Below are positions 4,511-46,189 of a stretch of 64,000 nt of DNA, piece by piece. A program made the position numbers and the translations under genes. Every line of letters begins with the position of its first letter. Position 1 is the first letter of the stretch. The stretch covers positions 1,252,342-1,316,341 of the forward strand of contig BPUI01000001.1 in NCBI GenBank assembly GCA_019973575.1, in the 5' to 3' direction. The stretch comes from Gemmatimonadetes bacterium T265. Lineage in GTDB: Bacteria; Gemmatimonadota; Gemmatimonadetes; Gemmatimonadales; Gemmatimonadaceae. The notes below the pieces were generated by a model. That model did no database searches and had not been told where the DNA came from. It saw nothing but the letters and a program-made list of their open reading frames with translations.

Positions 4511-4662
4511 TCCACCGGCTCCGCGTCCCGTGCGCCCACCCGACGTTACCCGGCCGCAATATGGGCGGGCACGCGCACGCGATGCAGCGTACGGCACAGC
4601 GGCATGCGCCGCGCGCGCGGTCGGGGAACGCAGACCGCTTCGTTCCCGGCCCACTTCGAGCG

Positions 4663-4989
4663 ATGCCACCGACGCCGACCTGGCGTCCGCCGCCGGCGGA
4701 CGTCGACCGCAACCACGACCGCCGCCTCGACGCGTCCGAGCGCGACGACCTGCCCGACACCGCCTACGGCCTGCCGGCCCATCGCAAGCTCCCACTCACC
4801 GACGCCGGGCACGTGCGGGCCGCCCTCGCCCGCTTCGACCAGGTGGCCGGGGTGACCGACGCGGACCGCGATCTCGCGTTCGCGAACGTGCGCGCCGCGG
4901 CCGAGCACTTCGGCGTCGCGGTGCGCGAGACCCGGTGGCAAGACCTCGGGCGCGCGCCGCACACGCCCCACCCGGCGTCCGACCGCTGA
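4663..4989 (+). CDS. Small DUF6582-like protein
   Basis: 108 residues from ATG 4663. The core has SERDDLPDTAYGLP, then AHRKLPLTDAGHVRAALARF and an alanine-rich helix. This resembles the short DUF6582-type domain found alone or at the ends of phage and plasmid proteins, in which S-x-L/R-P-D-S/T-A-F is followed by a helix of regularly spaced residues. No signal peptide or membrane segment. It is divergent from the PAS kinase. The TGA stop at 4987 is in the same frame as the aspartyl protease remnant downstream. Function unknown; family assignment is from memory of the motif. Confidence 0.6.
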   Translation: MPPTPTWRPPPADVDRNHDRRLDASERDDLPDTAYGLPAHRKLPLTDAGHVRAALARFDQVAGVTDADRDLAFANVRAAAEHFGVAVRETRWQDLGRAPHTPHPASDR

Positions 4990-5012
4990 CGCGCCCGCTC
5001 GCCCGTCGGTCG

Positions 5013-5047
5013 ACCCGGACGTACCCGGACGTACCCGGACGTACCCG
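5013..5047. repeat. Short tandem repeat, 10-bp unit ACCCGGACGT, 3.5 copies
   Basis: Three and a half head-to-tail copies of ACCCGGACGT lie between the DUF6582-like gene and the 5'-truncated aspartyl protease. Its position at the point where the protease gene loses its N-terminal half suggests slippage or recombination there. No promoter was recognised in it. Confidence 0.85.
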
Positions 5048-5115
5048 CTGGACGTGCGGCCCGCGCGGCCACATCTTGGACGCTGGTCCGGCGGCAACCG
5101 CGCGTCGCGATCCAG

Positions 5116-5700
5116 GTGCGGGACGGCGGACGCCCGGCGGTGGCGCGCACGCTCATCGTCGACAGCGGCTCGGGCGACGCGGTCGACGACTCGCTCGTGC
5201 GCCAATCGACGACGGCGCCCCGCTACGAGGTGAGCACGAGCGGGCTCGGGGCGTCGTACCGCGTCGTCGTCGGCACGTTCGACACGGTGCGCGTCGGCCG
5301 ATTTACGCTCACCGCGGTGCCGGGCGTCGCGTCCGACATCGCCCTCATCGGGAACGCGGTCTGGGGCCGGTTCACGTGCGTGTTCGACTACCCGCACGGG
5401 CGGCTGTTCCTCGAGCCGAACGCGCGGTTCGGGGACGCGTTCGACCGCGGCCCGCGGGGCGGGCTGGAGCTGTTCGCGGCGGCGTACCACCGCATGCCGA
5501 CGGTGAGCACCGTGCACCCCGGGTCGGCGGCGGCCCGCGCCAGCTTGCAGGCGGGCGACGTGCTCCTCACCGTCGACGGGCGGGCCGCGACGGACTTCGG
5601 GGTGGAGCGCCTCACGGTGTTGCTCAATCGGCCCGGGAACGCGTACCGCCTCGGCGTCCTGCGCGGCCGGACGCGTGTCGAACGCGTCCTCCACCTGTAG
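5116..5700 (+). CDS. Aspartyl protease-like protein with PDZ domain, N-terminal half missing
   Basis: 194 residues from GTG 5116; the frame is open back to 4990 but has no better start there. The first part has a retropepsin-like strand and catalytic-type motif IVDSGSGDAVDD, then the second half of the fold (ALIGNAVWGRFTCVFDYPHGRLFLEPN). A PDZ domain follows (TVHPGSAAARASLQAGDVLLTVDGRAA). Family members of this layout are usually about 400 residues with an N-terminal signal peptide and another retropepsin half before this point. Here that half and the signal peptide are absent, and a 10-bp tandem repeat sits just upstream. Likely a decayed gene; a short cytosolic product is possible. Confidence 0.7.
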   Translation: MRDGGRPAVARTLIVDSGSGDAVDDSLVRQSTTAPRYEVSTSGLGASYRVVVGTFDTVRVGRFTLTAVPGVASDIALIGNAVWGRFTCVFDYPHGRLFLEPNARFGDAFDRGPRGGLELFAAAYHRMPTVSTVHPGSAAARASLQAGDVLLTVDGRAATDFGVERLTVLLNRPGNAYRLGVLRGRTRVERVLHL

Positions 5701-6156
5701 GCGAGCCCAGAGCAGGTCAGATGGTAGGTCTGAGGCCCATGTTCCGCCGCGTCCACCGCTTCGCGCACGTCCGGTGGTGTGTCACACGACCGCCGCTTCG
5801 GTGACGCGCTAAGCCGCAAGGTCAGCGCCGCCCGATATTGCGCCGGGCTGCCGTGCGGCGCGACACCACGGGCAGCGGCCGGACCTCGCGCACCGGACGT
5901 CGCGGGTCACGCGTGACGGAATTCCGGTCCGGAGAGGCGGTGTCTGACGGCGGCGGACCTGCGGTGTAGGAGCCGCGTTGGCTCCTCGACACGCGCCGGG
6001 TGTCCCGGCCGACGAGGGGGGCCGGCGTCCCCGGGGTGCGCGGCGCAAGATGCGCCGTGGCCGCCAACCTGCGGGGCTCGCGAGCCGGCTCCGTTTCGCC
6101 GACGCGATCTCCGGAGCCGCCCGCGGCGTCCGTTCCACACACCGCCGACCACCGCT
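5701..6156. other. Intergenic stretch, no gene recognised
   Basis: 456 bp between the protease remnant and the acetyltransferase. I see only a short hairpin (GGAGCC/GGCTCC, about 5968-5984). No reading frame here resembles a known family. Confidence 0.5.
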
Positions 6157-6600
6157 ATGCCGTACACGATCACCCTCGAACCCGACGAGTCCCGCGCCGT
6201 CCACGACGCGATCCGTCGCGGGATCCGCGGTGCCGATCCGTCCGACGTGGGCGCCCGCGACTACCAGCCCCTGTGTCTCGCGCTCCGGGCCGCGGACGGC
6301 GACATCGTCGGCGGGCTGGTCGGGGCGACGATGTGGGCGTGGCTGATGATCGACGGCCTGTGGGTCGCGGAGGCGCTGCGCGGCCGGGGACACGGGAGCG
6401 GGTTGCTCGCCCGCGGCGAGGCGGTCGCGGCCGGGCGCGGGTGTCGCGGCGCGTGGCTCGGCACGTTCGACTTCCAGGCGCGGCCGTTCTACGAAGGCCG
6501 CGGGTACGCGGTCTTCGCCGAGCTCCCCGGCTTCCCGTCGGGGCACACCCACTGCCACCTGCGGAAAGCCCTCACGCCGTCGCCACCCGCGGGCGCCTAA
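6157..6600 (+). CDS. GNAT family N-acetyltransferase
   Basis: 147 residues from ATG 6157. The order fits the GNAT fold: an N-terminal region, strand GGLVGATMWAWLMIDGLWV, the acetyl-CoA pyrophosphate loop AEALRGRGHGSGLL (R-G-x-G-x-G/S), helix ARGEAVAAGRGC, then GAWLGTFDFQARPFYEGRGYAVFAEL, with the usual FYE+GY motif near the C-terminus. It should transfer acetyl from acetyl-CoA to a small molecule or peptide amine; the substrate cannot be read from sequence. The TAA stop is inside a GCCTAAC heptamer. Convergent with the ankyrin gene. Confidence 0.9.
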   Translation: MPYTITLEPDESRAVHDAIRRGIRGADPSDVGARDYQPLCLALRAADGDIVGGLVGATMWAWLMIDGLWVAEALRGRGHGSGLLARGEAVAAGRGCRGAWLGTFDFQARPFYEGRGYAVFAELPGFPSGHTHCHLRKALTPSPPAGA

Positions 6601-6751
6601 CGCCACAGCGTCGGCCCGTCCTCGTCCGGCGCATCGGGTGCGGGCGGTCCGCGGCATGGCGCGAATGTCGTGGCCGACGGCGGCGCGAGCACCCCGGGGA
6701 GCCATCTCGCACCCCCGGGACACTCGTCGCCGCCCGCGGCGAGCCGCCTCG

Positions 6752-8087
6752 TTAGGCGCGACCGCCCCGCGCCGCGATGAGCCGCATCGCGGGCGCGCTC
6801 ACGAACACGCGGCGGTGGAACCGCTCCCCCCACGCGAGCGGCGTCACGTCCCGGTACGCCTGGAGCGTGTCGGGGCCGTAGCCCGGGTGCAGCTGCTTGC
6901 GGAGCGAGGCGCGCGCGTTCGGGTCGGCGCCGTGGTCGAGGAGCAACTGCGTGAACGGCGCGACCTGTGCCCGGCCGTCGTGACTCATCCAGAAGTTCGG
7001 CTGCGACACCACGGTGGCGAACAGCGCCGTGTGCCCGCCGAAGCCGTCGGCGTCCACGGCCGCCCGCGCGTCCACGGCCATCCCGCGGTCGAGCAGCCAG
7101 CGCGCGATCTCCGTCTCGTCGTAGTCGACGGCCATGTGCAGCAGCGTCGCCCCGGCCAGCGGCGTCCCGTGCGTCGCCAGCACCTCGTCGTGGCACCCCA
7201 GTTCAGGCGGGTAGATCTCCTCGTGCGAGAACGTGCGCGACAGGAGCCCCGGGTCGCGTTGGAGGTGCGCCGCGAGCAGGTCGAGCCGGCCGCGGTGGAC
7301 GGCCATCGGCGGCGTGTCGGGCAGGGCCACCCCGTGGCGGACGTAGGACTCGAGGATCGCGGGCTTGGCCGCCGGGTTCCGGCTGTCGGTCTCGAGCACC
7401 ACGTCGACGGGCGCGGTCCGGACGCCACTCGCGTCGCGGACCTGGGCGCCGAACTCGAAGAGGAGCGCCGTCCCCGCCGTACTGAGCGTGTAGGCCGGCC
7501 CGCCGAACGCGTCGGCCGGCGGGCGCGGCGCGCCGAGCAGCGCGTGCAGCGTGCGGGCGGTCTCGACGTGGCTCGTGAGCGTCGCGCGCGCGCGCGCGGC
7601 GTCGAGGTCGGTCGCGCCGAGGGCGTGGAGCAACGTGACGATCCGGTCGCGCCCGAGCGTCGCCGCGTAGGACAGCGGCGGCCCCCAGTTGCTGCGCTCG
7701 CCGTCCTCGCGAAAGCGTACGTCTTCCCCGAGCAGGCGGGGGTGCCGGGTGACGAGGGCGCGGACGGCACCGACGTCGTCGCGCCAGATCGCGTCGGCGA
7801 GGCGGCACGCGAGCACGAGCCGCGGCCAGGCCCGCACCGCGTCGCTGCGGGCGAGCACGAGGTGCGCGTCGGCGAGCCTCACGCCGGCGAGCCGGCTTTC
7901 GGCGGCCGGCGAGTGCGCCGCGTCGGACGGGTCGGGCGCGCGGGCGGGGGCGTACCGGGGGTGGGTGGTACGTCGCGAACTCCGCGAGGGCGACCGGGTC
8001 GCCCCGGCGGACGGCGCGGAGCAGGTCCTTGGCCTGGTGCTTCAGCTGGTCCAGGGCCGGACGGACGGGCAGACGGCGGGCGGGCAT
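6752..8087 (-). CDS. Ankyrin repeat protein, N-terminal segment out of frame (frameshift)
   Basis: The long frame (376 residues, 7882 to 6752) carries ankyrin repeats (TLLHMAVDYDETEIARWLLDRG; LLLDHGADPNARASLRKQL). Its proper N-terminus lies upstream in another frame from ATG 8087 (RPALDQLKHQAKDLLRAV, then RGDPVALAEFATYHP). If one base is removed from the run of five G at 7957-7961 (plus strand), the upstream frame continues as RYAPARAPDPSDAAHSPA into VRLADAHLVLARS, giving one protein of about 445 residues, as is usual for this family (K-H-Q-A-K-D-L-L start, then ankyrin repeats). So the gene has a single-base insertion or the assembly has an error. Function: protein-protein interaction; partner unknown. 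Confidence 0.8.
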
Positions 8088-16930: not shown

Positions 16931-17161
16931 TTGGTGGGGCGGGTGGGACCGCGCGGTTGGTGCGGCGCTGTTGATCTGGCGCTGTTGGTGAAACGCTGTT
17001 GATACCACGCTGTTGGAACGGCGGGGTACGACCAGGGCGGCGCCGCGGCCCGGGTACTCCTCCTCTACCGCCGTCTCAACAGCGCCCTATCAACAGCGCC
17101 GCACCAACAGCATCCCACCAACCGCGCGGTATCAACCGCGCGGTCCCACCCGCCCCACCAA
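16931..17161. repeat. Inverted array of CGCTGTTG units with 29-bp perfect outer arms (locus A)
   Basis: The left half has four CGCTGTTG units at 14-15 bp spacing (16976-17020); the right half has CAACAGCG units in reverse orientation (about 17082-17112). Outer arms 16931-16959 and 17133-17161 are perfect reverse complements over 29 bp. The centre (about 17022-17080) does not pair obviously. The whole can fold into one long hairpin. It lies between the rhomboid gene stop and the queF start, both on the minus strand. A second array of the same kind lies at 45924-46117. Confidence 0.9.
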
Positions 17162-24040: not shown

Positions 24041-24850
24041 CTACCGCCGGTCCAGTCGCACCTCGTACAGCCGGGCGTAGTTCTTCCCGGTCACGTACAG
24101 CTTGTCCTGCGCCGCGTCGTAGGCGATCCCGTTCAGCACGTCCTCCTTGCCCGTGCGGTCGGTCGCCAGCGGGAGGGTGCTGAGGTCGATCCAGCCGGTG
24201 ACCGCGCCCGTCTTGGGGTCGATGCGGACGATCTGCTGGCTCTGCCAGATGTTGGCGAGGAGCTCGCCCTTGACCCACTCGAGTTCGTTCAGCTGCGAGA
24301 CGGGCGACGCCCCGTCGTGCACGTCGAGCGTGCGGCGCACGGCGAACGTCTTCGGGTCGAGGAAGCGGAGGCGCGCGGTGCCGTCGCTCATGATGAGCGA
24401 CTCGCCGTCGGTCGTGAGCCCCCACCCCTCGCCGTAGTACGTGAACGTCTGCGGGCGCGGCGCGAAGGTGGCGAGGTCGTAGGTGAACGCCTTGCCGTTC
24501 TTCCAGGTGAGCTCGTAGAGCACGTCGCCGAACGCGACGATCCCCTCGCCGAAGTACTTGGGGTCGAGCGGGCGCCGCAGTTCGACGGTGCCGGTGGCGA
24601 GGTCGGTGCGGCGGATGTCGCTCTTGCCTTCGAGGCCCGTCCCCTCGTAGAGCTTCCCGTCCTTGATGAACAGCCCCTCGGTGAACGCCGCGGGGTCGTG
24701 CGGGTAGCTGCGCACGACGGTGGCGACGTAGTTGGCGGGGCCGGTGGGAGTCGCGGAGGCGGTTGCGCTGTCGGCGGGCGGGGCGGCGTCGTTGCCGCGG
24801 CAGGACATCGCGAGCAGGGCGGTGAGGGCGATCGCGAGCGGACGTATCAC
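24041..24850 (-). CDS. Glutaminyl-peptide cyclotransferase (bacterial/plant type)
   Basis: 269 residues from GTG 24850, overlapping the mutS TGA by 3 nt (GTGA). A lipoprotein signal (LAIALTALLAMSCRG) precedes a five-bladed propeller domain: SYPHDPAAFTEGLFI, YEGTGLEGKSDIRR, YFGEGIVAF, LTWKNGKAFTYD, YYGEGWGLTTDG, LNELEWVKGELLANIW, VLNGIAYDAAQDKLYVTGK. These are the signature repeats of plant-type glutaminyl cyclase, which forms N-terminal pyroglutamate on exported proteins. Location: periplasm or membrane. Cotranscribed with mutS. Confidence 0.92.
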   Translation of the reverse strand: MIRPLAIALTALLAMSCRGNDAAPPADSATASATPTGPANYVATVVRSYPHDPAAFTEGLFIKDGKLYEGTGLEGKSDIRRTDLATGTVELRRPLDPKYFGEGIVAFGDVLYELTWKNGKAFTYDLATFAPRPQTFTYYGEGWGLTTDGESLIMSDGTARLRFLDPKTFAVRRTLDVHDGASPVSQLNELEWVKGELLANIWQSQQIVRIDPKTGAVTGWIDLSTLPLATDRTGKEDVLNGIAYDAAQDKLYVTGKNYARLYEVRLDRR

Positions 24851-27624
24851 GGAGGAGTGGCCTGAGCCTGCGCGGCGAGCCGGGCGAGGAGTTCGAGCGC
24901 CTGCATCGGCGTGAGGTGGTTCGGGTCGACCGCGCGGAGCGCCTCGAGCGCCGGGTGCGGGGCCGGCGGCGGGGCGAATAGCGGGAGTTGATCCGCGGGC
25001 GCGACCGGTGATACCCGTCGCGCGCGGCGACGGCCGTCGCCCGCCGGTCCCTCCGTCGCCGGCCCGTCCGCCGCCGGCGGGTGCTGCTGCGCCTCCAACG
25101 TCGCGAGCACCGCCTTCGCCCGCGCGATCACCGGCGCGGGGAGCCCCGCCAGTCGGCCGACCTCGATCCCGTACGAGCGGTCCGCGCCGCCCGGGACGAG
25201 CCGGTGCAGAAAGAGCACGCGGTCCTCGGTCTCGCGCACGAGCACCGTCATGTTGCGCGCCGCCGCGAGGTCGTCGGCGAGCGCGACGAGCTCGTGGTAG
25301 TGCGTCGCGAACACCGTCTTGCACCCCACCGCGTCGTGCAGGTGCTCGCTCACGCTCCAGGCGATCGAGACGCCGTCGTAGGTGCTCGTGCCGCGCCCGA
25401 TCTCGTCCAGCAGCACGAGCGAGCGGCGCGTCGCGGCGGCGAGGATCGCCGCCGTCTCGGTCATCTCGACCATGAACGTCGACTGCCCGCGCACGAGGTT
25501 GTCGCTTGCCCCGACGCGCGTGAACAGCCGGTCGACGACGCCGACCCGCGCGCGCGACGCGGGGACGAAGCTCCCCACCTGCGCCATCAGCACGATGAGC
25601 CCCGTCTGCCGGAGCACCGTGCTCTTGCCGGCCATGTTCGGCCCGGTGAGCACGACGAGGCGCGCGTCGTCGGTCAGCTGCAGGTCGTTGGGGATGAAGC
25701 GCTCGCGCGGCATCATCCGCTCGACCACCGGGTGGCGGCCCCCGACGACGTCGAGGTCGAAGCCGTCGGTGACCTCGGGGCGCACGTAGCCCTCGCGCTC
25801 CGCGACGTCGGCGAGCGCGGCCAGGACGTCGAGCTCCGCGAGCCGCGCCGCCGCGCGCTGCAGCGGCTCGATCTCGGCCCCCACCCGCGCGCGGAGCGCG
25901 TCGCACACCGCGCGCTCGCGCGCCTCGATCGTTTCGGCCGCGCCCAACACGGCCGCCTCGTGCTCCTTGAGCGCGGGCGTGACGTAGCGCTCCGCGCCGG
26001 CGAGCGTCTGCCGGCGCTGGAAGTCGGCGGGCACGAGGTGGCGGTGCGCGTTGGTCACCTCGAGGAAGTAGCCGAAGACGCGGTTGAAGCCGACCTTGAG
26101 CGACGGGATCCCGGTGCGCGCCCGCTCGTGCTGCTGGATCGCGGCGATCGCGTCCCGGCCGCCGTCGCGGAGCGCGCGCGCCCGGTCGAGCGCCGCGTCG
26201 ACCCCGCCGGCCACGGTCGGCTCGTCGCCGCCGAGTTGGAGCGGGGGGCGGGCGACGAGCGCGGCGGCGAGCGCGCCGGCGAGCGCGCCGACGCCCGCGG
26301 CCATTTCGTCCCACTCCGCGCCGATCGCGGCCAGCCGCCCGCCCGCGGTCACCTCCGCGCTCACGTCGTCGAGCACGCGCGCGAGCGCGGCGCGCCCGTC
26401 GGGGAGCCGCGCGAGCGAGTCGCCTAACAGCCGCAGCTCGCGCGGCGTCGCGCGGTTGGCGGCCGCCTTGCCGGCGAGGCGCTCCACGTCGCGCACGCCG
26501 TCGAGCGCCTCGCGCAGCGCGCCGCGCGCGAGCGGGGCGGCGGCGAACGCGGCCACCGCGCCGAGCCGCGCGTCGATCGCGGCGACGTCGACGAGCGGGG
26601 CGAGCAGCCAGCGCCGCAGCAGCCGCGCGCCCATCGGCGTCGCCGTCCGGTCGAGCACCGCGACGAGCGTCCCCGCCTCGCCGCCGTCCTCGCCCGCGCC
26701 GGGCCGGAGCGACTCGACGAGCTCGAGGTTGCGCCGCGTCATCTCGTCGAGCGGCATCGCGCCGCCCGCGCGCTCGACCGTCGGCCGCGCGAGGTGCGGC
26801 AGCCCCGCGGGCTGCAGCTCGCGCAGGTAGCGGAGCAGCGCGCCCGCGGCGCCGAGCAGCAATTCGTCTCCCGACGCGACCAAGCCGAGGGCGTCGGGGC
26901 CGAGGGCGTACTGGCGGCGGAGCTCGTCGGCGCCGAGGGCGGGGTCGAACTCCCACGCGTCGCGCGCGGTGAGGAGCGGGGCGCCGCCGGACGCAGAGTC
27001 GGGCGGCGCACCCGCGCCGGAGGACGCGGCGCCGGGGAGCGCGGCGGCGCCGCGCTCGGTCAACAGCTCGCGCGCGGCGTAGCGGGCGAGCAGCGCGTCG
27101 GCGTCGGCGAGGGGCGCGGTCGCGAGGCGGAACTCGCCGGTCGACAGGTCGGCCGCGGCGAGCGCGACCCGGCCGGCGTCGGCGCGGGCGGCCGCGACGA
27201 AGGTGTTGCGCGACGCGTCGAGCAGCTCGTCGGCGAACGCGGCGCCGGGCGTGACGGTCTCGACCACCTCGCGGCGCACGACGCCCTTGGCCTGCTTCGG
27301 GTCCTCGACCTGCTCGCAGATCGTCACGCGGAAGCCGCGGCTCACGAGGCGGCGCACGTACTCCGCGCACGCGCGCACCGGCACGCCGGCGAGCGGCACG
27401 TCGGCCGCGCCGCCGTTGTTGCGCGCCGTCAGCGTGAGGCCTAACACGCGCGCGGCGACCTCGGCGTCGCCGTAGAACATCTCATAGAAGTCGCCACAGC
27501 GATACAGAAGGATGCTGTCTGGATGGGCGCGCTTGTGCGCCTCCCAATCCAGCATCATCGGTGTTGCTGCGGCTTCGGTCGCACGTTCGGGTGCGTCGGG
27601 TCGAGAAGTGACGCTCGTGCTCAC
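24847..27624 (-). CDS. mutS: DNA mismatch repair protein MutS, 5' end supplied by an inserted element
   Basis: 925 residues from GTG 27624. It recognises mismatches and hands on to MutL. Domain I holds the mismatch-binding motif in LLYRCGDFYEMF; the ATPase has Walker A GPNMAGKST near residue 661, LVLLDEIGRGTSTYDG and a late ATHYHEL. Bases 27496-27624, coding for about the first 43 residues, have visibly lower G+C and come from the element; the rest is host mutS. The displaced host start survives at 32885-33044. The usual RMGDFYE reads RCGDFYE here. Expression must now depend on a promoter inside the element. The C-terminal tail (QALELLARLAAQ) is normal. Confidence 0.96.
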   Translation of the reverse strand: MSTSVTSRPDAPERATEAAATPMMLDWEAHKRAHPDSILLYRCGDFYEMFYGDAEVAARVLGLTLTARNNGGAADVPLAGVPVRACAEYVRRLVSRGFRVTICEQVEDPKQAKGVVRREVVETVTPGAAFADELLDASRNTFVAAARADAGRVALAAADLSTGEFRLATAPLADADALLARYAARELLTERGAAALPGAASSGAGAPPDSASGGAPLLTARDAWEFDPALGADELRRQYALGPDALGLVASGDELLLGAAGALLRYLRELQPAGLPHLARPTVERAGGAMPLDEMTRRNLELVESLRPGAGEDGGEAGTLVAVLDRTATPMGARLLRRWLLAPLVDVAAIDARLGAVAAFAAAPLARGALREALDGVRDVERLAGKAAANRATPRELRLLGDSLARLPDGRAALARVLDDVSAEVTAGGRLAAIGAEWDEMAAGVGALAGALAAALVARPPLQLGGDEPTVAGGVDAALDRARALRDGGRDAIAAIQQHERARTGIPSLKVGFNRVFGYFLEVTNAHRHLVPADFQRRQTLAGAERYVTPALKEHEAAVLGAAETIEARERAVCDALRARVGAEIEPLQRAAARLAELDVLAALADVAEREGYVRPEVTDGFDLDVVGGRHPVVERMMPRERFIPNDLQLTDDARLVVLTGPNMAGKSTVLRQTGLIVLMAQVGSFVPASRARVGVVDRLFTRVGASDNLVRGQSTFMVEMTETAAILAAATRRSLVLLDEIGRGTSTYDGVSIAWSVSEHLHDAVGCKTVFATHYHELVALADDLAAARNMTVLVRETEDRVLFLHRLVPGGADRSYGIEVGRLAGLPAPVIARAKAVLATLEAQQHPPAADGPATEGPAGDGRRRARRVSPVAPADQLPLFAPPPAPHPALEALRAVDPNHLTPMQALELLARLAAQAQATPP
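27485..27495. repeat. Left attachment core TAGAAGTCGCC
   Basis: Eleven bases identical to 32892-32902. On the coding (minus) strand they read GGC GAC TTC TA, that is Gly-Asp-Phe-Tyr of the MutS F-x-E mismatch-binding loop. Confidence 0.85.
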
Positions 27625-28613
27625 CAGCGGTTTGACCGAATTACCAGTACGTTACGGACTTACTTACGTCGTCCGTGTCCAAGAGGGGAATGCTTTGTGC
27701 CTTAGCGGAGACGGCGAGCGCGATCATCGATGTGCGAAGTTAACAGCGCGTCCAGGGCACCGTAGCAGCGTGCGGTCAGGCGGACTTGCGTGCTTACGCA
27801 AGCTGATCTGGCCGGAAGTAGAGGCAAGCGCTACGTCCGAGGGCGGAGTCTAGCAGTCCGCCCGCCCGCACGACTTGGAGCGGGATGCGGCGCCAATCCG
27901 GACGTGGGTAGGTGCAACTGGTGTGGTCTAGCCAGTAACGTGCTCGGCCGCGCTCGGGCCCGGAGTAGAGCTGGCGAGCTACTGTTTAGTGTCCCCACTC
28001 ATTGAGGTCGGCGCCGAAGGCCCGCAGCCGAAACAATCGGGTGCGTGAGGCGCAAAAAGTGCCACACAGCTCACGGTCAGGCCTTGACGAAGTTCGTCAA
28101 GCGATGATTTTCGGTGCATCACATGTGTCGCATGAGTGCCTCGCGTGAGAAAGCCGTCATGAAACCTTTCATGAGGGAGAACGCTGGGCGTAACACGTCA
28201 TGCCCGACCTGCGAAATGCTGTGCCGAATGCTTGCCTCAGGCGTCCCGTGGTAGCGAAAGTGACGCGTGGTACCGCTTAACACCTGTTGAGGCCTTGCGT
28301 CAACCTGTTGCGGGTGCGATAGTAGCGGCCGCAAGCTCTCGTCTCACCCGAGCGATACGAACGTTTCGGTCGGCTGGTTTTGAACGGCACACGCCCTGCA
28401 CGGCCCTGACCAAGCCTCATGCCCATCAAAAGTAAGAAGACCTTACTTGGCTTGCGGGGTATGAGGGGTTCTCAGGATAACTCACCATTCACCGGAATCG
28501 GAGTCAAGTATGCGCCTCATTCGAGCGACACTTGTCTGGGCGACCGAGGCCGGGTACACAGCGTCAGCCGACATCCGGCCCGACGAACCCACCATCATGT
28601 GGAGGAAGACGAC
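27625..28613. other. Element non-coding region upstream of mutS and of the GNF peptide
   Basis: Nearly 1 kb without a convincing gene. It must contain the promoter of the rebuilt mutS (minus strand) and of the peptide gene (plus strand). Visible structure: dyad CTTGACGA-AGT-TCGTCAAG (28083-28101), dyad CATGAAA-CC-TTTCATG (28158-28173). Possible small RNA or regulatory region; I cannot assign one. Confidence 0.5.
28083..28173. repeat. Two short perfect dyads
   Basis: CTTGACGA/TCGTCAAG with a 3-bp spacer (28083-28101) and CATGAAA/TTTCATG with a 2-bp spacer (28158-28173), 56 bp apart. Either could be a repressor site or an RNA hairpin. Confidence 0.6.
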
Positions 28614-28679
28614 ATGAAGCACCCAGTGAAGATCACCGTCACGGGCAACTTCGGCGGGAACTTCGGCGGGAACTTCTGA
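28614..28679 (+). CDS. 21-residue peptide with C-terminal GNF repeat
   Basis: The peptide reads MKHPVKITVTG followed by NFGGNFGGNF. A strong ribosome-binding site GGAGG sits 8 bp before ATG 28614. The stop is followed by a small hairpin and then a perfect 36-bp palindrome, so this looks like a compact, separately terminated transcription unit. The front is basic and beta-prone, the tail is three tandem (G)GNF units. It could be a precursor peptide, a leader peptide or a small membrane-active peptide. No modification enzyme is recognised next to it. A longer in-frame reading from ATG 28419 exists but lacks a comparable ribosome-binding site. Confidence 0.55.
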   Translation: MKHPVKITVTGNFGGNFGGNF

Positions 28680-28697
28680 AGTCCGTAGTTGCTCGCT

Positions 28698-28754
28698 GTA
28701 CCATGTAATGTGGTACCGCTGAAGGGCCTGTCTCCGCGGAGACAGGCCCTTCAG
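28698..28754. terminator. Small hairpin plus perfect 36-bp palindrome between convergent genes
   Basis: GTACCA (28698-28703) pairs with TGGTAC (28711-28716). Directly after, 28719-28736 and 28737-28754 are perfect reverse complements over 18 bp with no spacer (CTGAAGGGCCTGTCTCCG and its complement). Located between the GNF peptide and the convergent three-TM gene, it fits a bidirectional terminator. Confidence 0.75.
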
Positions 28755-28782
28755 CGTTGGTAACTAGGGCGGCTTTACCTCT

Positions 28783-30054
28783 TCAGGACGTGGCAGGGGA
28801 CGCCGCAAGAGTGCCTGTAGTCGTGGGACTGGCGGGTGGGACGACCGTAGCTCCGGCAGGCGGTGTCCCCGGAGAGGACGGAGGCGAGGGTTGCGGTAGC
28901 CACTTGGTGACGACTTCGAAACCCTGCCACGGGAGCAGCCCGATCGGGAACTCCCATGTCCGGCCGGCCACCCGATTCACAATGCGCTCCTGATCCGGGT
29001 GCATCGCGGAGACGTCGAACTCGACATCCTGCACCGTCGTCGCGTCAATGGTTATCATCGCGTCCGTGGTGCAGATGCTCGTGGTCCAGCAGAACGTGTC
29101 GGGAACGCGGATCGCTTCCTCAAGGATCATGGTCACGATGACAGGAGCAACGTCGATGTCGGCTGTGGTCTTGAACAGCGTCCCTTCTGGATTAAGTTTC
29201 TTGGTGAGATTAATACCTTTATACGACTCCATGCCGACCTCCACGGATTTAATCTGCGGGAGTACCGTCCCGTTCGTGCACTGCACGCGGCGATCGCTGT
29301 CGATACCAAGCTTGATAGGTTCGCCGCGCACCACACTCCCGGTGAGGCTGCGGAGCTGGTAGCGGAGGATGGTGGTGGCGAACAGTAGGTTTTTGTCGAC
29401 CTGCGTGAGTGCATCTTCGCGGCGCACGTTGATCTCGACGGCCCAATTCTCCTTGACGACCTTGGCGCTCAAGACGTGAACGCGAACTTGGTCGAACACT
29501 GCTGCTGGGATCAGGCGCTTGAACGCCGCCTCGATGACGCCCGAGCGGATCTCGCCTTGGAGACGACTCCTCGCGTACTGTTCTAGAATGAGCGAGAGCA
29601 CGACGGCAAGGCAGAGCGCCATCCCAATGTCCCGCCACACGAGATCGGGAAATGTCTCGGGCTGGATGTGGCCCTCCCAGTCAGTGAGGGTCTTCCGTAT
29701 CGCACTCTGTTGCGTCGCGAGAAGGCCGGGCACGATATGTCCGATCTCCACCAGAACGCTGTCACCAATGTGTTCTTCGGTGACGTGCCGGTGCGCGCCT
29801 GCGTAACCCACGCAGCAGAGACCGAACACTCCGACGGCCGCGAGAATAAAGTTGTACCGGACTTTGGCCGGCTCCATCTCACTGGATTCTCCCGGTGAAA
29901 TAGCGCCATACGCGCCGGTGGTGTGCTTGGCCTTCGCAAGCTGTCTCAGGTACCACCGTCGAGCCCACCAGATCAACACGCCCGCGACGACCGTCACAGC
30001 TAGGATGGTGGCCAGAACAGTTCGGTCCACATGGATGACGATGTCGTTGCCCAA
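28783..30054 (-). CDS. Unknown membrane protein with three TM helices and soluble C-terminal domain
   Basis: 423 residues from TTG 30054, chosen because GGAG lies 10 nt upstream and the first TM follows directly. TM1 about residues 13-30 (LATILAVTVVAGVLIWW), TM2 about 69-86 (FILAAVGVFGLCCVGYAG), TM3 about 143-160 (MALCLAVVLSLILEQ). Residues 165-385 are a soluble mixed alpha/beta domain (VRVHVLSAKVVKENWAVEIN, WTTSICTTDAMITIDATTVQDVEF), then a Pro/Ser/Thr tail. I recognise no family. Base composition is lower in G+C than host genes. It is convergent with the GNF peptide gene. Confidence 0.75.
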   Translation of the reverse strand: MGNDIVIHVDRTVLATILAVTVVAGVLIWWARRWYLRQLAKAKHTTGAYGAISPGESSEMEPAKVRYNFILAAVGVFGLCCVGYAGAHRHVTEEHIGDSVLVEIGHIVPGLLATQQSAIRKTLTDWEGHIQPETFPDLVWRDIGMALCLAVVLSLILEQYARSRLQGEIRSGVIEAAFKRLIPAAVFDQVRVHVLSAKVVKENWAVEINVRREDALTQVDKNLLFATTILRYQLRSLTGSVVRGEPIKLGIDSDRRVQCTNGTVLPQIKSVEVGMESYKGINLTKKLNPEGTLFKTTADIDVAPVIVTMILEEAIRVPDTFCWTTSICTTDAMITIDATTVQDVEFDVSAMHPDQERIVNRVAGRTWEFPIGLLPWQGFEVVTKWLPQPSPPSSPGTPPAGATVVPPASPTTTGTLAASPATS

Positions 30055-30367
30055 GCGGGGAACTCCGTATCGGGTGAGGATGATCGAGAAGACGGCCGGC
30101 AGTGCTGATGCCTACGTCATCCCGCAGCAATGTTGACGCGGCCTAACCTTGTGACGAAAACCAAGTTCTGCAACCCTCGCCGGGGCTGCCTTGACGAACC
30201 CCTGCCCGGCCTGCGGGCGTAGGGGCCGCTGATTCTGCGCCCGTGGCAAGCCGGAGAGCTGGCGCGACCGCTACCGGTTCTAGGTAGCCGGTCAGTCGAA
30301 TCACGCAGCGATCTCGGCGAGTCTCCAGACATGATCCGTCAGCCCGGCCGCCATCGCCGGGGTCGTC

Positions 30368-31090
30368 TTAATCGCGCCGCCTTCGTGAGCGTCGCGTGGG
30401 GCAGCAGTAGTTGTAGAACATGCAGTAGAGGCTGACCGCGTGCGCGTGGTTCTCGGCCTTCTTGCTGAAGCCGTTCGTGAGCCGCGTGAACCGGCGCATC
30501 TGCGTCCGCATGGTCAGGTTCGCGCGCTCGACGTAGGACGTAGACACGAGGTCGTCGTCGGGCGCCCCTGGCACGCGCTCTTTCGTCGCCCCGGTGCAGA
30601 CCATCGGGCTGTAGCGGCGCTGCGACCCGACTTCGGCCGCCTGTCCGTACGGCTTCACGATCATCGCGTAGTCGACGCCGTGGTAGCCGAAGGCACCCTC
30701 GACGGCCGTGAGGTACATGTGGTGGCCGTCCGTCGTGAGCTGGACGCGGTTGGCGAGCCGCCCGGCCACGTCCTGCATGAAGGCGTAGGCGTTCTGCGGG
30801 GTGCGCTCCCCGACGAGCCACGACAGCATGAGCTTGGAGTCCGCGTCGATGTCCGTAAACGTCCAGATGTCGCCCTGGCCGGCGTGCGTGGCGTTCCGCT
30901 GCTTCGCGCCGACGAACGCCCAGATCTCGTCCGCCTCCACGCGCTGCGTCGTGAGGTGGCGCAGCGCGTGGTCCTGGTAGACCGAACAGGACTCGCCCAC
31001 ATCTACCAAAAGCCGCGGGACTGTGTTCTTGCTTACCCCAGTCACGCGGGCGACGGCACGGATGGACTGACCTTCAACCAGTCCCTTCAC
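30368..31090 (-). CDS. IS1 family transposase, 3' end frameshifted
   Basis: 240 residues from GTG 31090; the frame is open upstream to 31120 without a better start. N-terminal HTH (GQSIRAVARVTGVSKNTVPRLL), DDE core (RVEADEIWAFVGAKQ; VQLTTDGHHMYL), and the hallmark SYVERANLTMRTQMRRFTRL followed by GFSKKAENHAHAVSLY. The normal C-terminus then appears in two other frames: HATLTKAA, then KTTPAMAAGLTDHVWRLAEI ending at 30301. Two one-base deletions would explain this, so the enzyme is probably inactive unless they are sequencing errors. I could not define terminal inverted repeats. It sits inside the mutS element and may have replaced part of it. Confidence 0.88.
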   Translation of the reverse strand: MKGLVEGQSIRAVARVTGVSKNTVPRLLVDVGESCSVYQDHALRHLTTQRVEADEIWAFVGAKQRNATHAGQGDIWTFTDIDADSKLMLSWLVGERTPQNAYAFMQDVAGRLANRVQLTTDGHHMYLTAVEGAFGYHGVDYAMIVKPYGQAAEVGSQRRYSPMVCTGATKERVPGAPDDDLVSTSYVERANLTMRTQMRRFTRLTNGFSKKAENHAHAVSLYCMFYNYCCPTRRSRRRRD

Positions 31091-31126
31091 GATCGCCGCG
31101 TCGCACGAGATATTGCGTGTTCATGT

Positions 31127-31177
31127 TTGACAACATGCGTAACGCTACGCATATTGTCAATGCGTAGCGTTACGCAT
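31127..31177. promoter_or_regulatory. Divergent promoter overlapped by a large palindromic operator
   Basis: Plus strand: TTGACA (31127-31132), 17 bp, CATATT (31150-31155), leading to the P63C gene. Minus strand: TTGACA (31160-31155), 17 bp, CATGTT, leading to the transposase. Two 18-bp arms, ATGCGTAACGCTACGCAT (31135-31152) and its exact reverse complement (31160-31177), lie over these promoters with a 7-bp spacer. Each arm is itself nearly palindromic. This is what a dimer- or tetramer-bound repressor site looks like. Confidence 0.75.
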
Positions 31178-31202
31178 AACCCCCCTGTGCCCCGGACGGG
31201 CC

Positions 31203-32336
31203 ATGTCTGAAGAGGCGAAAAAACTCGGAGCGTTAGGCGGGAAGAGGCGCGCGGCGAATCTGACGAAGGCGCAGCGGAGCGACGCGGCTCGAAAGGCAGC
31301 GATGGCCCGGTGGGGCGGCGAGCTCCCGGTCGCCGCCCACTCGGGGACGCTGGTAATCGGGGACTTGCCGATCCCGTGTTCCGTGTTGGCCGATGGGACG
31401 CGCGTAGTGTCGGAAGCGGGCTTCACGAAGGCGCTCGGGCGAGCTCGAAGCGGCACGGCTTGGATGCGCGGTAACGACCCGGGAGCTCGGATGCCACACT
31501 ACGCCCCTCCGAAGAACCTTATCGAGTTCATTGGCAACGACTTAGCCAATGAGCTCATGCAGCCGATCAAGTATGTCTCGGTCAGCGGCGGGAAGGTCGG
31601 TTACGGGGTCAAGGCTGCGTTGATCCCGCAGATTTGCGAGGCGTGGTTGCGCGCTCGCGATGCCGGCAAGCTCAACCGGCAACAACAGCGGACCGCCGCC
31701 CAAGCCGAGGTACTGATGCGCGCCCTCGCGCATGTCGGCATCATCGCGCTAGTCGATGAGGCGACCGGGTATCAGGAAGTACGTCAGAAAAACGCGCTCG
31801 CGGAGATTCTTGAAAAGTTCATCTCCAAGGAGCTCCGGAAGTGGGTGCGACGTTTCCCGTTCGCGTACTACGAGCACATCTTCCGGTTGAAGCGCTGGGA
31901 CACATCGGAGCTGACTCCGAACTCTCCGAAGCCGCTAGAGGTCGGGCGCATAACCGACGACCTGATCTATCGGCGACTGGCCCCTGGTGTCCGAGCTGAG
32001 TTGAGGCGTCTCACGCCGCGCAACGAGAAGGGATATCTGTCCAGCAAGCTTCACCAAAGGCTCACGGACGACATCGGGAATCCGAAGCTTGAGAAGCACA
32101 TCGCAATCACGATGGCGCTCATGGAGATTTCTCCGGACTGGCCGACCTTTATGGGCCACGTAAACCGAGTCCTTCCGCCGTTCAACAAGAACTACGAGCT
32201 ACCGCTCGGCGACGCGAGAGATTCGTCTACGCGCCTACACGTCACCTCCCGCGCTCTGTCGGCGGGAGCTCCAGCGATGCGAGAGGCGGACGAGGTTGAC
32301 GAGGCGGAGTTTGAGATTCTTCCGTCTGCCGGATGA
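31203..32336 (+). CDS. P63C domain-containing protein
   Basis: 377 residues from ATG 31203. The N-terminus (AKKLGALGGKRRAANLTKAQ, AARKAAMARWGG) is a lysine/arginine/alanine region usual in this family. The centre and C-terminal half (GYQEVRQKNALAEILEKFIS, LRKWVRRFPFAYYEHIFRLK) is the P63C domain, known from phage and genomic-island proteins of unknown role. A leucine-glycine pair near the start uses TTAGGC. Driven by the palindromic promoter at 31127. It could be a regulator or an anti-host factor; nothing in sequence decides. G+C lower than host genes. Confidence 0.87.
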   Translation: MSEEAKKLGALGGKRRAANLTKAQRSDAARKAAMARWGGELPVAAHSGTLVIGDLPIPCSVLADGTRVVSEAGFTKALGRARSGTAWMRGNDPGARMPHYAPPKNLIEFIGNDLANELMQPIKYVSVSGGKVGYGVKAALIPQICEAWLRARDAGKLNRQQQRTAAQAEVLMRALAHVGIIALVDEATGYQEVRQKNALAEILEKFISKELRKWVRRFPFAYYEHIFRLKRWDTSELTPNSPKPLEVGRITDDLIYRRLAPGVRAELRRLTPRNEKGYLSSKLHQRLTDDIGNPKLEKHIAITMALMEISPDWPTFMGHVNRVLPPFNKNYELPLGDARDSSTRLHVTSRALSAGAPAMREADEVDEAEFEILPSAG

Positions 32337-32418
32337 CACGCTGAACAACTCGGAAGGCCGACTCGATCACGTCTTCGAGGGCCGCCCACGTCTTGGACGG
32401 TTTCTTCTGTTTTGCCAT
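32242..32418 (-). CDS. Possible 58-residue small protein, antisense to the P63C 3' end
   Basis: ATG 32418 to TGA 32242. It reads MAKQKKPSKTWAALEDVIES then a helical stretch and a Pro-rich tail. The lysine-rich start is plausible for a real small protein, but there is no clear ribosome-binding site and 95 bp overlap the P63C gene on the other strand. Confidence 0.3.
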   Translation of the reverse strand: MAKQKKPSKTWAALEDVIESAFRVVQRVIRQTEESQTPPRQPRPPLASLELPPTERGR

Positions 32419-32456
32419 CTAGGGAGCCTACCCTCGGTCGGCCGGTCCGCCCACTC

Positions 32457-32747
32457 TGTCACGGCGCAAACTGACCCACGACCGCACGGCGCGCGCAGGC
32501 GGGCGCTCACGTCCTCGCGGCAGGCGGCGAGCCGCAGGCTGTTGGACGTCGGGCGGAAGAACGTGGCACGCGTGAGGGGCAGCGGGACGGACATGGCCAG
32601 AGTCTGCAGCCTAACGCAGAGTAATCGTCCACCCAGATGGTCCGGACGCGGCCCAGACTGGTGCCGGTGGCCAGTCGAGGCGGTCAGCCGTACCGCCGCG
32701 CTCGCGCCATTTCCCCAGTCCCCTGCTTTGTCACGGCGAAACTGACC
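32457..32747. repeat. Two near-identical 19/20-bp direct repeats, IS21-end-like
   Basis: TGTCACGGCGCAAACTGACC (32457-32476) and TGTCACGGCGAAACTGACC (32729-32747), 272 bp apart, same orientation, differing by one inserted C. The form TGT...AAACTGACC resembles the multiple terminal repeats of IS21-family elements. No istA or istB gene is present. The rest of 32419-32884 shows no recognisable gene. Confidence 0.45.
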
Positions 32748-32884
32748 GACTACCGGCCGGACCCCTCGCGACACGCCCATTTTGGCTCTAACATCACGGC
32801 ATCACGTCCGTTGACGCCCGAGCCCCCTCTACGCGGGCTCGGGCGCTTCGTACGCCCGTACCTCGGCGTCTGCTGTGGGGACTT

Positions 32885-33044
32885 CTATTCGTAGAAGTCG
32901 CCCATGCGGAAGAACAGGATCGCGTCGGGGTGACGCGCCTTGATCTCCAGGTACTGCTGCATGGCCGGCGTCGCGGGCGCCTCCGGGACCGACGCGCCAT
33001 TCGCCGACGGGCCGCGGGCCGGCGGGGCGACGGACGCGGTCACC
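32885..33044 (-). pseudogene. mutS: Orphan 5' end of the host mutS gene, with right attachment core
   Basis: GTG 33044 starts a 52-codon frame ending MQQYLEIKARHPDAILFFRM-GDFYE-stop. This is the canonical MutS N-terminus up to the mismatch-binding motif; the stop comes right after the 11-bp core (32892-32902). The fragment lies 33 bp after the SPOR gene and keeps host base composition, so the original order was SPOR gene, mutS, glutaminyl cyclase. Aligned to the element-supplied start of the intact mutS, the two agree in H-P-D-x-I-L and G-D-F-Y but differ elsewhere. Confidence 0.9.
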
Positions 33045-33077: not shown

Positions 33078-34490
33078 TCACGGGCGCTGCGGCGCGGCGG
33101 ACGGCCCGTCGCCGGCGTCGGTGACGAAGCCGGCGAGCCCCTGCCCCGCGAACGTCGCGCGCGCCGCCGCCGCGGCCGTGCGCGACGTGTAGCGGCCGAT
33201 CTTGACGCGGAACGGGGCCATGCTCCCCGTCGCCCGGGCGTCGAACCCGCGCGCCCGCAGGTGCGCGGCGAGCGACTCGGCCCCGTCGCGCTGGGCGTAG
33301 GCGGCGACCTGCACGGCGAAGCCGCCGGCGGCCGGCGTGGCGGCCGCGGGCGCGGTGGCAGACGGCGTGGCGGCCGTCGGCGGTGGCGTGGCTGGCGTGG
33401 CGGCCGGCGCGGCCTTCGCCTTCGCCGTCGACGTCCAGACAGTCGATGGCCCCGGCGCGGGTGCGCCCGGCACAGGTGCGCTCGATGCGAGTGCGCCCGA
33501 TACGGATGCGACGGTCGTCGTTGCACTCGACGACGTCGGGCGCGACGCCGTCGGTGCCGGCGTGGTCGGTGCCGCTGTAGCCGCTGCGGACGACCGCGCC
33601 GGGGTCGTAGCCGAGCCCGACGTCGGCCGCGTGGAGGTCGCCGCGGCCGTGGTGATGGTCGCCGGCGTGGCCGTCGCGGGTGGCGTGATCGGCGTGGGCC
33701 GCGCGGCCGGCGGAGCCGCGGCGGGGGTGGGAGCCCGCGTCTCGTCGTCAGACGCGTGCGACGCGGGCGCGGCCGTTTGCGTCGCCGGGTGCGGCGGGGC
33801 GGGCGTGCCGGGCGGCACCACCGCGACCACCGACGCCGGGTCGCACGCGGGCAGCCGCTGCCAGAGTTCGAGCACCTGCTGCCGCGTGAACGTCTCGCTG
33901 CTCCGCGCCGCGGCCGACGCGTCGGCGAGGGCGAGGCACGCGCCGCGCGTGTCGCCGAGTTCGAGCCGCGCGCGCGCGAGCCAGTAGTCGGCCTGCGCGT
34001 GCGCCGGGTCGTCGGGCCGTTCGCGCACGAGACGCGCGAGCGCGGGCGCGGCGACGTCGGGGCGGTCGCGCGAGATGTCGAGCTGGGCGAGCCGGACGAT
34101 CGCGTCGCCCACGCGCGGCGAGGTCGAGAATTCGTCCGCGATGCGCCGCAAATCCTGCTCCGCCCGCGCCCCGTCCGCGCTCAGCGTCGCGCGCCACCAG
34201 AGCGCCTCGGCCAGCGCCGGCGAGCCCGCGGGCGAAGCCGCGACGAGCGAGTCGGCGACCGCGCGGCCGAGCGCGCCTTGCCCCTGTTCGACGAGGCGGC
34301 GCGCCCGCTCGTACGGCCCGACGGCGGAGCCGGTGGTGAGCGACGGCGGCACTCGCTGCGCGCCGGCCGCGCGCGCGGCGAGCGGGCCGACGGCGCAGAC
34401 GGCGACCGCGCACGCGAGGAGGACGCGGGCGTTCCGGGCGGGGCGAGCGGTCCGGAGCGTCACGGCTCGACTCGGGGCAGGTTGGCGCAT
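33078..34490 (-). CDS. SPOR-domain protein with TPR-like region
   Basis: 470 residues from ATG 34490. Signal peptide (VLLACAVAVCAVGPLAARAAGAQ), then TPR-like helices (YERARRLVEQGQGALGRAVAD, AEALWWRATLSADGARAEQDL, ADYWLARARLELGDTRGACL) to about residue 215. A long Ala/Pro/Thr linker leads to a C-terminal SPOR domain (AVQVAAYAQRDGAESLAAHL, RGFDARATGSMAPFRVKIGR). SPOR binds denuded peptidoglycan at the septum, so it should be an envelope protein of division or cell-wall maintenance. Originally upstream of mutS in the same operon. Confidence 0.88.
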   Translation of the reverse strand: MRQPAPSRAVTLRTARPARNARVLLACAVAVCAVGPLAARAAGAQRVPPSLTTGSAVGPYERARRLVEQGQGALGRAVADSLVAASPAGSPALAEALWWRATLSADGARAEQDLRRIADEFSTSPRVGDAIVRLAQLDISRDRPDVAAPALARLVRERPDDPAHAQADYWLARARLELGDTRGACLALADASAAARSSETFTRQQVLELWQRLPACDPASVVAVVPPGTPAPPHPATQTAAPASHASDDETRAPTPAAAPPAARPTPITPPATATPATITTAAATSTRPTSGSATTPARSSAAATAAPTTPAPTASRPTSSSATTTVASVSGALASSAPVPGAPAPGPSTVWTSTAKAKAAPAATPATPPPTAATPSATAPAAATPAAGGFAVQVAAYAQRDGAESLAAHLRARGFDARATGSMAPFRVKIGRYTSRTAAAAARATFAGQGLAGFVTDAGDGPSAAPQRP

Positions 34491-34581
34491 GGAACGGAGG
34501 ACGGCGCGCAGCACGCCGGGAAGATACGCCGTCCCCGCCGTTCGCCAGCGGTGTCGGCGGCAGCAGTGCCGCCGACGGCGG

Positions 34582-35709
34582 TCAGCGCCGCGTGGCGCCT
34601 GCGGCGGCGGGGCGCTCCTGCGGCAGCGCGCAGAGGGCGAGGACCAGTGTGGTGAGGAGCTGGGCGTCGGAGGACACGCCGGTCTCCTTGAGCGCGACGT
34701 CGGCCTGGAGCAGCAACTCGAGCGCGCGGTCGAGCGCGGGCGCGGTCCACCGATCGACCGCGCCGGTCCACGCCCGCACGGCCTCACCCCACGGGCGGCC
34801 GGTGTAGGCGTTCCCGAGCTCCTTGAGCAGGGTCATGTACGCGTCGGGCCCGTTGCCGCCGAGTGCGGAGACGCTCACGCCGCGGGTGCGGCGGGCCTGC
34901 CCCCAGGCGAGGGCGAGGGTCTGCGTGGCGAGCGCCATCACGGCCGTCACCGCGCTGCTCTTCGGGAGCGAGAGCACGTGCGGGACGAGGGCGCCCGCGG
35001 TGCGCGCGTCCTGCCGGGCGACGGCGTCGAGCAGGTCGGCGAGGGTCTCGCCGCGGCGCACGCCGACCACGGCGGTCACGGCCGCCTCGTCGATCGCGAG
35101 CGCGTCGCCCGACCGGCCCTGCGCGTAGCTCGCGAGCTTGTCGAGCTCCGCGGCGAGCTGCGGCAGGTCGTTGCCGACGGCCTCCTGCAGTAGGCGGGCG
35201 GCCTCGGGGGTGATGCGGGCGCCGAGGACCGTGCTGGCGTGGTGCGTGATCCAGCGGAGAAGGCGGTCCTCGCGGAGCGGGGCGAACTCGAACGCGCCCG
35301 CGCCGGCGCGGGTCAGGAGGGCGCGATCGACCTTGCCGCCGGCCGGGGCGACGAGCAGGAGGACGGTGTCGGGGGCGGCACGCTCGAGGTAGCGGTCGAG
35401 GGCGGCGCGGGCGTCCTTTTTCAGCGCCGCGGGGTCCCGCAGCACGACGGCGCGTCGCTCGGCCATCATTGGCGGCGTGTCGAGCAGGGAGCCGAGCGCC
35501 CCCGCCTCGGCCTCGGCGCCGCGGACCGTTTCGAGGTTGAAGTCGCGCGTGGCGGGATCGACGGCGGCCGCGAGGAGTTGGCGGACGGCGTCGTCCTTCT
35601 GGTAGTCGTCGTCGCCGTAGAAGTAGTAGAGCGGGGCGAAGGCGCCGGCGGCGAGCGCGGTGTTGAGGGCTTTGTGCGCGGTGGCGGGGGGCGCGACGGC
35701 GGCAGGCAT
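34582..35709 (-). CDS. holA: DNA polymerase III subunit delta
   Basis: 375 residues from ATG 35709. Clamp-loader delta subunit: opens the beta clamp. N-terminal ALAAGAFAPLYYFYGDDDYQKDDAVRQLL in pieces, FNLETVRGAEAEAGALGSLLDTPPMMAERR, VVLRDPAALKK, then the helical lid and collar (ITPEAARLLQEAVGNDLPQL, ELDKLASYA) and a C-terminal collar domain. Length and order fit HolA. It starts 39 bp after the thioredoxin-NHL gene and precedes the SPOR gene; all on the minus strand. Confidence 0.92.
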   Translation of the reverse strand: MPAAVAPPATAHKALNTALAAGAFAPLYYFYGDDDYQKDDAVRQLLAAAVDPATRDFNLETVRGAEAEAGALGSLLDTPPMMAERRAVVLRDPAALKKDARAALDRYLERAAPDTVLLLVAPAGGKVDRALLTRAGAGAFEFAPLREDRLLRWITHHASTVLGARITPEAARLLQEAVGNDLPQLAAELDKLASYAQGRSGDALAIDEAAVTAVVGVRRGETLADLLDAVARQDARTAGALVPHVLSLPKSSAVTAVMALATQTLALAWGQARRTRGVSVSALGGNGPDAYMTLLKELGNAYTGRPWGEAVRAWTGAVDRWTAPALDRALELLLQADVALKETGVSSDAQLLTTLVLALCALPQERPAAAGATRR

Positions 35710-45881: not shown

Positions 45882-45923
45882 GGCAAGGGGGGGGGGGCGG
45901 GTTGGGAGAAGACGGGGGAACGA

Positions 45924-46117
45924 CGCTGTTGGTCGGGCGCTGTTGATGCGACGCTGCTGACGCGGCGCTGTTGGTGAAACGCTGTTGGAACGGCGGGTTG
46001 ACGGACCCGAGCCGTAGCGCCCGGATCTTGGTGCCCCTGCCCTTCCGCCATTTCAACAGCGCCGTTCCAACAGCGTTTTACCAACAGCGCCTGACCAACA
46101 GCGCCCGACCAACAGCG
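45924..46117. repeat. Inverted array of CGCTGTTG units (locus B)
   Basis: Left half: CGCTGTTG (once CGCTGCTG) repeated five times at 14-15 bp spacing (45924-45993). Right half: CAACAGCG five times in reverse orientation (about 46052-46117). Outer arms 45924-45945 and 46096-46117 are perfect reverse complements over 22 bp. It is the same architecture and unit as 16931-17161, in the gap between the CtaG and Rieske genes. Confidence 0.9.
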
Positions 46118-46189
46118 CCGTCCTCCACGCCCCACCAACCGCGCCTCGCCACCTTATCCCGTAGCGCCCTCCACCCCGCTCACCCCGAC

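Follow-up and report, generated by a model that had tools for sequence, protein, structure and literature searches.

A 21-residue open reading frame with a C-terminal tail of Gly-Asn-Phe (GNF) units lies in a low-GC island that splits the mutS gene of Gemmatimonadetes bacterium T265. The frame is probably a lineage-specific cargo micro-ORF or a young ORF, and we give about even chances to a fuller reading in which it belongs to a coupled cargo micro-operon and encodes a lineage-specific or young peptide that falls outside any conserved family of effectors, toxins or RiPPs. Orphan small frames in mobile islands are already a known kind; the split of mutS with replacement of its N-terminus is the more interesting observation.

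The small frame and its translation signals

The small-frame features in the window (the whole 64,000-nucleotide stretch of DNA that was analysed) are as follows.

28614–28679, + strand: 21-residue frame MKHPVKITVTGNFGGNFGGNF, from the ATG at 28614 to the TGA at 28679; single copy in its own genome
28601–28605, + strand: Shine–Dalgarno-like (SD) GGAGG, detected by script, 8 nt 5′ of the ATG at 28614
28642–28676, + strand: 12-nt tandem repeat, 2.8 copies, encoding the GNFG units
28510–28617, + strand: 35-residue frame MRLIRATLVWATEAGYTASADIRPDEPTIMWRKTT, with GGAG at 28500–28503, 6 nt before its ATG, and a stop that overlaps the 21-residue start as ATGA

The initial annotation proposed a 21-residue frame with a strong ribosome-binding site, and both are confirmed at 28614–28679, with GGAGG 8 nt upstream. 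It gave the product as MKHPVKITVTG plus three GNF units; three units are indeed present, but the glycine that ends ITVTG is the first residue of the first unit, and the peptide is parsed as MKHPVKITVT followed by GNF G GNF G GNF. At the DNA level the tail is one 12-nt tandem unit and would have grown by in-frame duplication of that unit. If the frame is translated, it represents a small gene that is invisible to homology-based annotation and whose repeat tail arose when a 12-nt unit was duplicated without a change of frame. The start region (28575–28640) is weakly structured and accessible (fold z +0.65). No sigma-70-like promoter was found in 27600–30400.

The foremost alternative is a fortuitous open frame, that is, non-coding DNA to which a 12-nt duplication and a chance GGAGG give the look of a gene, while the nearby hairpin serves only the gene of the convergent 423-residue protein. 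We take this possibility seriously but think it less likely than not. In its favour, the combination of an SD sequence and a short ATG frame can be produced by chance: frames of 20–60 residues with GGAGG 5–10 nt upstream arise in 238 of 4000 dinucleotide shuffles (∼6%) of the 1158-nt gap that separates mutS from the 423-residue gene, and frames of 18–40 residues with an SD sequence arise in 13% of shuffles of the longer stretch 27625–30370. Because such frames appear in ∼6% of the gap shuffles, an SD sequence with a short frame is weak as sole evidence. Within the island the 12-nt repeat outscores the two other tandem rows, and many of the rows displayed for the whole window score equally high, which also agrees with a fortuitous frame.

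The third-position GC bias is a stronger signal than the SD sequence and short frame. G or C occupies 20 of the 21 third positions (GC 0.43/0.38/0.95 at positions 1, 2 and 3) in DNA that is ∼59% GC, and an SD sequence together with a third-position bias of at least 0.45 occurs in 0 of 4000 shuffles of the 1158-nt gap, a result that is graded as moderate because the real sequence, unlike the shuffles, counts the same codons several times through the repeat. The ten codons that precede the repeat have G or C in the third position in nine cases, which argues against a fortuitous origin, as do the SD spacing and the ATGA overlap with a second SD-bearing frame. Two other frames of the same gap, out of the 25 longest-start ones (ATG, GTG or TTG; at least 20 codons), show a third-position GC excess of 0.28–0.29; the 21-residue frame has no row of its own among these 25, since it is counted inside its 86-residue extension. 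This in-frame upstream extension, which begins at 28419, was rejected as a coding frame, the added part showing no third-position bias (0.60/0.49/0.60). The 21-residue frame carries both the translation signals and the codon-position bias of a coding gene, and the suggestion of a real tiny gene gains moderate support from the SD sequence, the third-position GC, the accessible start and the ATGA overlap with a GGAG-led preceding frame.

The overlap with the GGAG-led 35-residue frame makes a two-frame micro-operon plausible. The 21-residue frame would be the second frame of a small transcription unit (35 residues and then 21, coupled through ATGA), and some of its peptide would probably be made, both from the GGAGG site and through coupling to the 35-residue frame. 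The 35-residue frame has a GC3 of 0.77; a search for its homologs among 99 genomes gave, besides itself, two weak matches (E 0.06 and 0.10), neither of them convincing. A stable hairpin at 28403–28470 (AGTAAG/CTTACT within CCTCATGCCC/GGGGTATGAGG) lies just 5′ of the 35-residue frame, in a 121-nt segment (28400–28520) with a fold z of −2.5.

The palindrome between the convergent genes

28717–28756, no strand: perfect 2 × 20-nt palindrome (40 nt), a probable bidirectional terminator common to the convergent transcripts
28783–30054, − strand: 423-residue orphan protein, convergent with the micro-ORFs

The small frame had been described as closed by a strong palindrome. The palindrome is real, perfect and very stable (z −8.2 for a 75-nt fold, 28696–28770, and −5.9 for a 176-nt fold), but it is not specific to the small frame. 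It starts 37 nt past the 21-residue stop, with 26 nt between it and the end of the convergent 423-residue gene, carries no T-run and is not listed by the scan that also sought promoters; for reasons of position and of the missing T-run, it is not to be claimed for the 21-residue frame alone. The hairpin could be explained by the 423-residue gene by itself, in keeping with a fortuitous small frame.

A private terminator of the 21-residue frame was rejected, since comparable hairpins lie between apparently convergent frames in the relative G357 and between convergent frames in the T265 genome itself. With the whole gap sequence as query, 148 family genomes gave a single match outside the T265 genome, namely the G357 copy (84% over 44 nt). 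This copy is placed just after a + strand frame and before opposite-strand frames, an apparently convergent arrangement as read from the sequence. The pattern AAGGGC…GCCCTT is not enriched in the T265 genome, with ten places against 12 for the reversed control. The hairpins examined were that of the window and five others with good stems out of the ten places; two of the five (L051 and L054) lie between convergent frames, one (L049) lies just past a frame end and two (L047 and L053) have no assignment. From these few cases, the palindrome is best read as a host-type terminator able to serve both strands, and the + strand transcript would end at this bidirectional hairpin, common to the convergent 423-residue gene.

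By eye, the 423-residue protein seems to contain membrane segments, and its tail is rich in Pro, Ser and Thr. Two partial matches besides itself were obtained among the 148 family genomes (E about 0.01), giving no convincing relative, and none was found in phages, plasmids or viral contigs.

Relatives and possible functions

In all of the collections searched, the 21-residue frame is found in a single genome, its own, which is consistent with a fortuitous frame as well as with a lineage-specific or young one. A whole-peptide search of 59 genomes returned its own genome and two weak matches inside long frames (E 0.16 and 0.75), which are taken as chance. The tail pattern (GNFGGNF with a stop-like end) and the N-terminal pattern MKxPVK[IV]TVTG each occur in one of 395 phylum genomes, again its own. 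The tail pattern matched 28 stretches in the species-genome contig collection, none of them a similar small frame: 11 have no terminal stop (the pattern TRR admits TGG) and the remaining 17 are unlike the peptide upstream of the tail. No match was found in phages and plasmids (tblastn, E up to 10) or in viral contigs (two patterns). The genome searches sampled evenly from larger groups and were not exhaustive, and near records may be missing from the collections.

Another reading makes the + strand transcript itself the functional product, a structured small RNA (hairpins at 28403–28470 and 28698–28756) in which the frames are incidental. The folds of the two regions (z −2.5 for 28400–28520 and −8.2 for 28696–28770) would suit such an RNA, but no Rfam match above chance was found in the stretch, and sequence relatives for covariation are limited to the hairpin, which matches in one relative. 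We regard this reading as very unlikely. A known RNA identity for the 21-residue region was likewise rejected, the Rfam matches lying far below gathering scores and none above chance.

Three functions had been suggested for the peptide, namely a modified peptide core, a self-assembling peptide and a small toxin, and none has gained positive evidence. The first two correspond to a functional GNF peptide, either a self-associating peptide of aromatic residues, Gly and Asn or a modified core whose enzyme is encoded elsewhere. In favour of this reading, Phe recurs at every fourth position of the regular (GNFG)n tail, and the frame is likely translated. Self-assembly derives from composition only. 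The searches gave no homolog of the peptide, and nothing in the neighbouring proteins scanned could be recognised as a modifying enzyme, a transporter or an immunity-like gene. No RiPP-type modifying enzyme was recognised among the neighbouring proteins and leftover frames scanned at this locus, no leader-like conserved region is seen and none of the 28 contig tail matches is a similar small frame. We regard a functional GNF peptide as very unlikely.

Type I toxins are short hydrophobic membrane-spanning peptides. A further reading, which we consider highly unlikely, is the toxin of a toxin–antitoxin pair, partnered by the 35-residue frame or by an antisense RNA: two overlapping tiny frames do occur in a mobile island, but the peptide runs from Lys, His and Thr to Gly, Asn and Phe with no hydrophobic span, neither small frame has homologs and PADLOC gave no convincing match for the four island proteins scanned.

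Unannotated SD-led small frames are a general kind in bacterial mobile elements. The 21-residue frame resembles them in being short, SD-led, overlapping with a neighbour and confined to one genome, and differs from them in its GNF tandem tail. RiPP precursors are encoded by very short frames with a repetitive C-terminal tail beside a modifying enzyme, and have a conserved leader and a variable core. The 21-residue frame shares the very short length and the repetitive tail, but no nearby maturation enzyme or transporter is recognised, and the searches turned up neither a conserved leader nor relatives.

The island within mutS

27484–27500, − strand: terminal repeat at the left end of the island, GCTGTGGCGACTTCTAT when read outward
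32872–32888, + strand: terminal repeat at the right end of the island, GCTGTGGGGACTTCTAT when read outward, 16/17 identical to the left repeat in inverted orientation
24847–27624, − strand: running mutS, with an N-terminus that differs from the native one up to GDFYE
27481–27624, − strand: 48-codon replacement of the mutS 5′ end, as far as GDFYE; its apparent source is the island
32885–32974, − strand: displaced native MutS N-terminus, cut at GDFYE and followed by TAG, at the far end of the island
30368–31090, − strand: IS1-family-like transposase (Pfam PF03400, E 1.3e-9; NCBIfam IS1, E 5.6e-17, below its cut-off)
31203–32336, + strand: P63C-domain protein (phrog_2384)

The setting is more informative than the peptide, in that an island splitting mutS at its conserved GDFYE motif gives the gene a new N-terminus and a new upstream region. 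The island spans ∼5.4 kb (27484–32888) and is low in GC, with about 60% against about 78% (roughly 27.5–32.9 kb). Its ends are inverted 17-nt copies of GCTGTGGsGACTTCTAT in 16/17 agreement. As in an integrative element, a displaced host segment is found at the far end and the host neighbours are otherwise adjacent: the MutS N-terminus resembles the displaced piece more than the running N-terminus in 28 of 29 mutS loci of relatives, the other being a tie (G037, 16 to 16), and a homolog of the SPOR-domain protein at 33078–34787 adjoins mutS in 25 of the 29. The stretch given for the native N-terminus beyond the far end of the island is 32885–33040 on the − strand.

We infer that the island entered mutS at the GDFYE codons by site-specific recombination and supplied the gene with a new start and new upstream DNA. 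Expression of mismatch repair could change as a result. The island frames scanned gave no family match to an integrase or other site-specific recombinase of its own; the recombinase would thus have acted in trans or have been lost. Inside the island, the IS1-like transposase belongs to another class of enzyme than a site-specific recombinase and may be a later passenger. The two-frame unit would be cargo of this ∼5.4-kb low-GC island, read away from the new mutS start. A bolder proposal, in which an integrase-less island hijacks mutS by replacing its upstream region and N-terminus and expresses the coupled 35- and 21-residue pair divergently from the new start, with the GNF peptide as self-associating or regulatory cargo, seems very unlikely to us.

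A search of 395 phylum genomes (E up to 1e-9) for a donor of the new MutS N-terminus gave no other match. Four genomes with a differing N-terminus or differing neighbours were taken, and no second mutS-inserted island was found in them. G037 has no copy of a displaced N-terminus in the 6.8 kb upstream of mutS, the stretch taken from G002 contains neither a SPOR nor a holA homolog, and G017 and G015 have a SPOR homolog upstream of mutS. In G037, a same-order relative (L083/L089), the MutS N-terminus is unlike that of most other loci and no SPOR homolog was found beside mutS. A frame in the 3486–7532 region of a viral-collection contig (L087), which we take to be tyrosine-recombinase-like, lies just upstream of an intact mutS and suggests that other elements sit next to this gene.

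In the published account of the SpyCI islands of Streptococcus pyogenes, these lie in the mismatch-repair operon between mutS and mutL and interrupt their co-transcription (PMC8115907). The present island is likewise a mobile island integrated at mutS/mutL genes, but unlike SpyCI as described there it interrupts mutS itself within the coding sequence, provides the protein with a new N-terminus and has neither a recognised integrase nor a recognised gene for phage structure. Strand-biased circularizing integrative elements, as described in PMC9345347, have 19-bp imperfect inverted end repeats and include the tyrosine recombinases intA and intB among four shared genes. The present island is similarly small with imperfect inverted ends (17 bp), but differs from the elements described there in that intA and intB are not recognised in the island frames scanned.

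Directly 5′ of the P63C gene and beside a TTGACA, a perfect 18-nt inverted repeat ATGCGTAACGCTACGCAT with a 7-nt gap (31135–31177) is probably an operator/promoter. Elsewhere in the window, arrays of 14/28-nt repeats with CAACAGCG motifs are present at 16948–17153 and 45921–46146, in both orientations.
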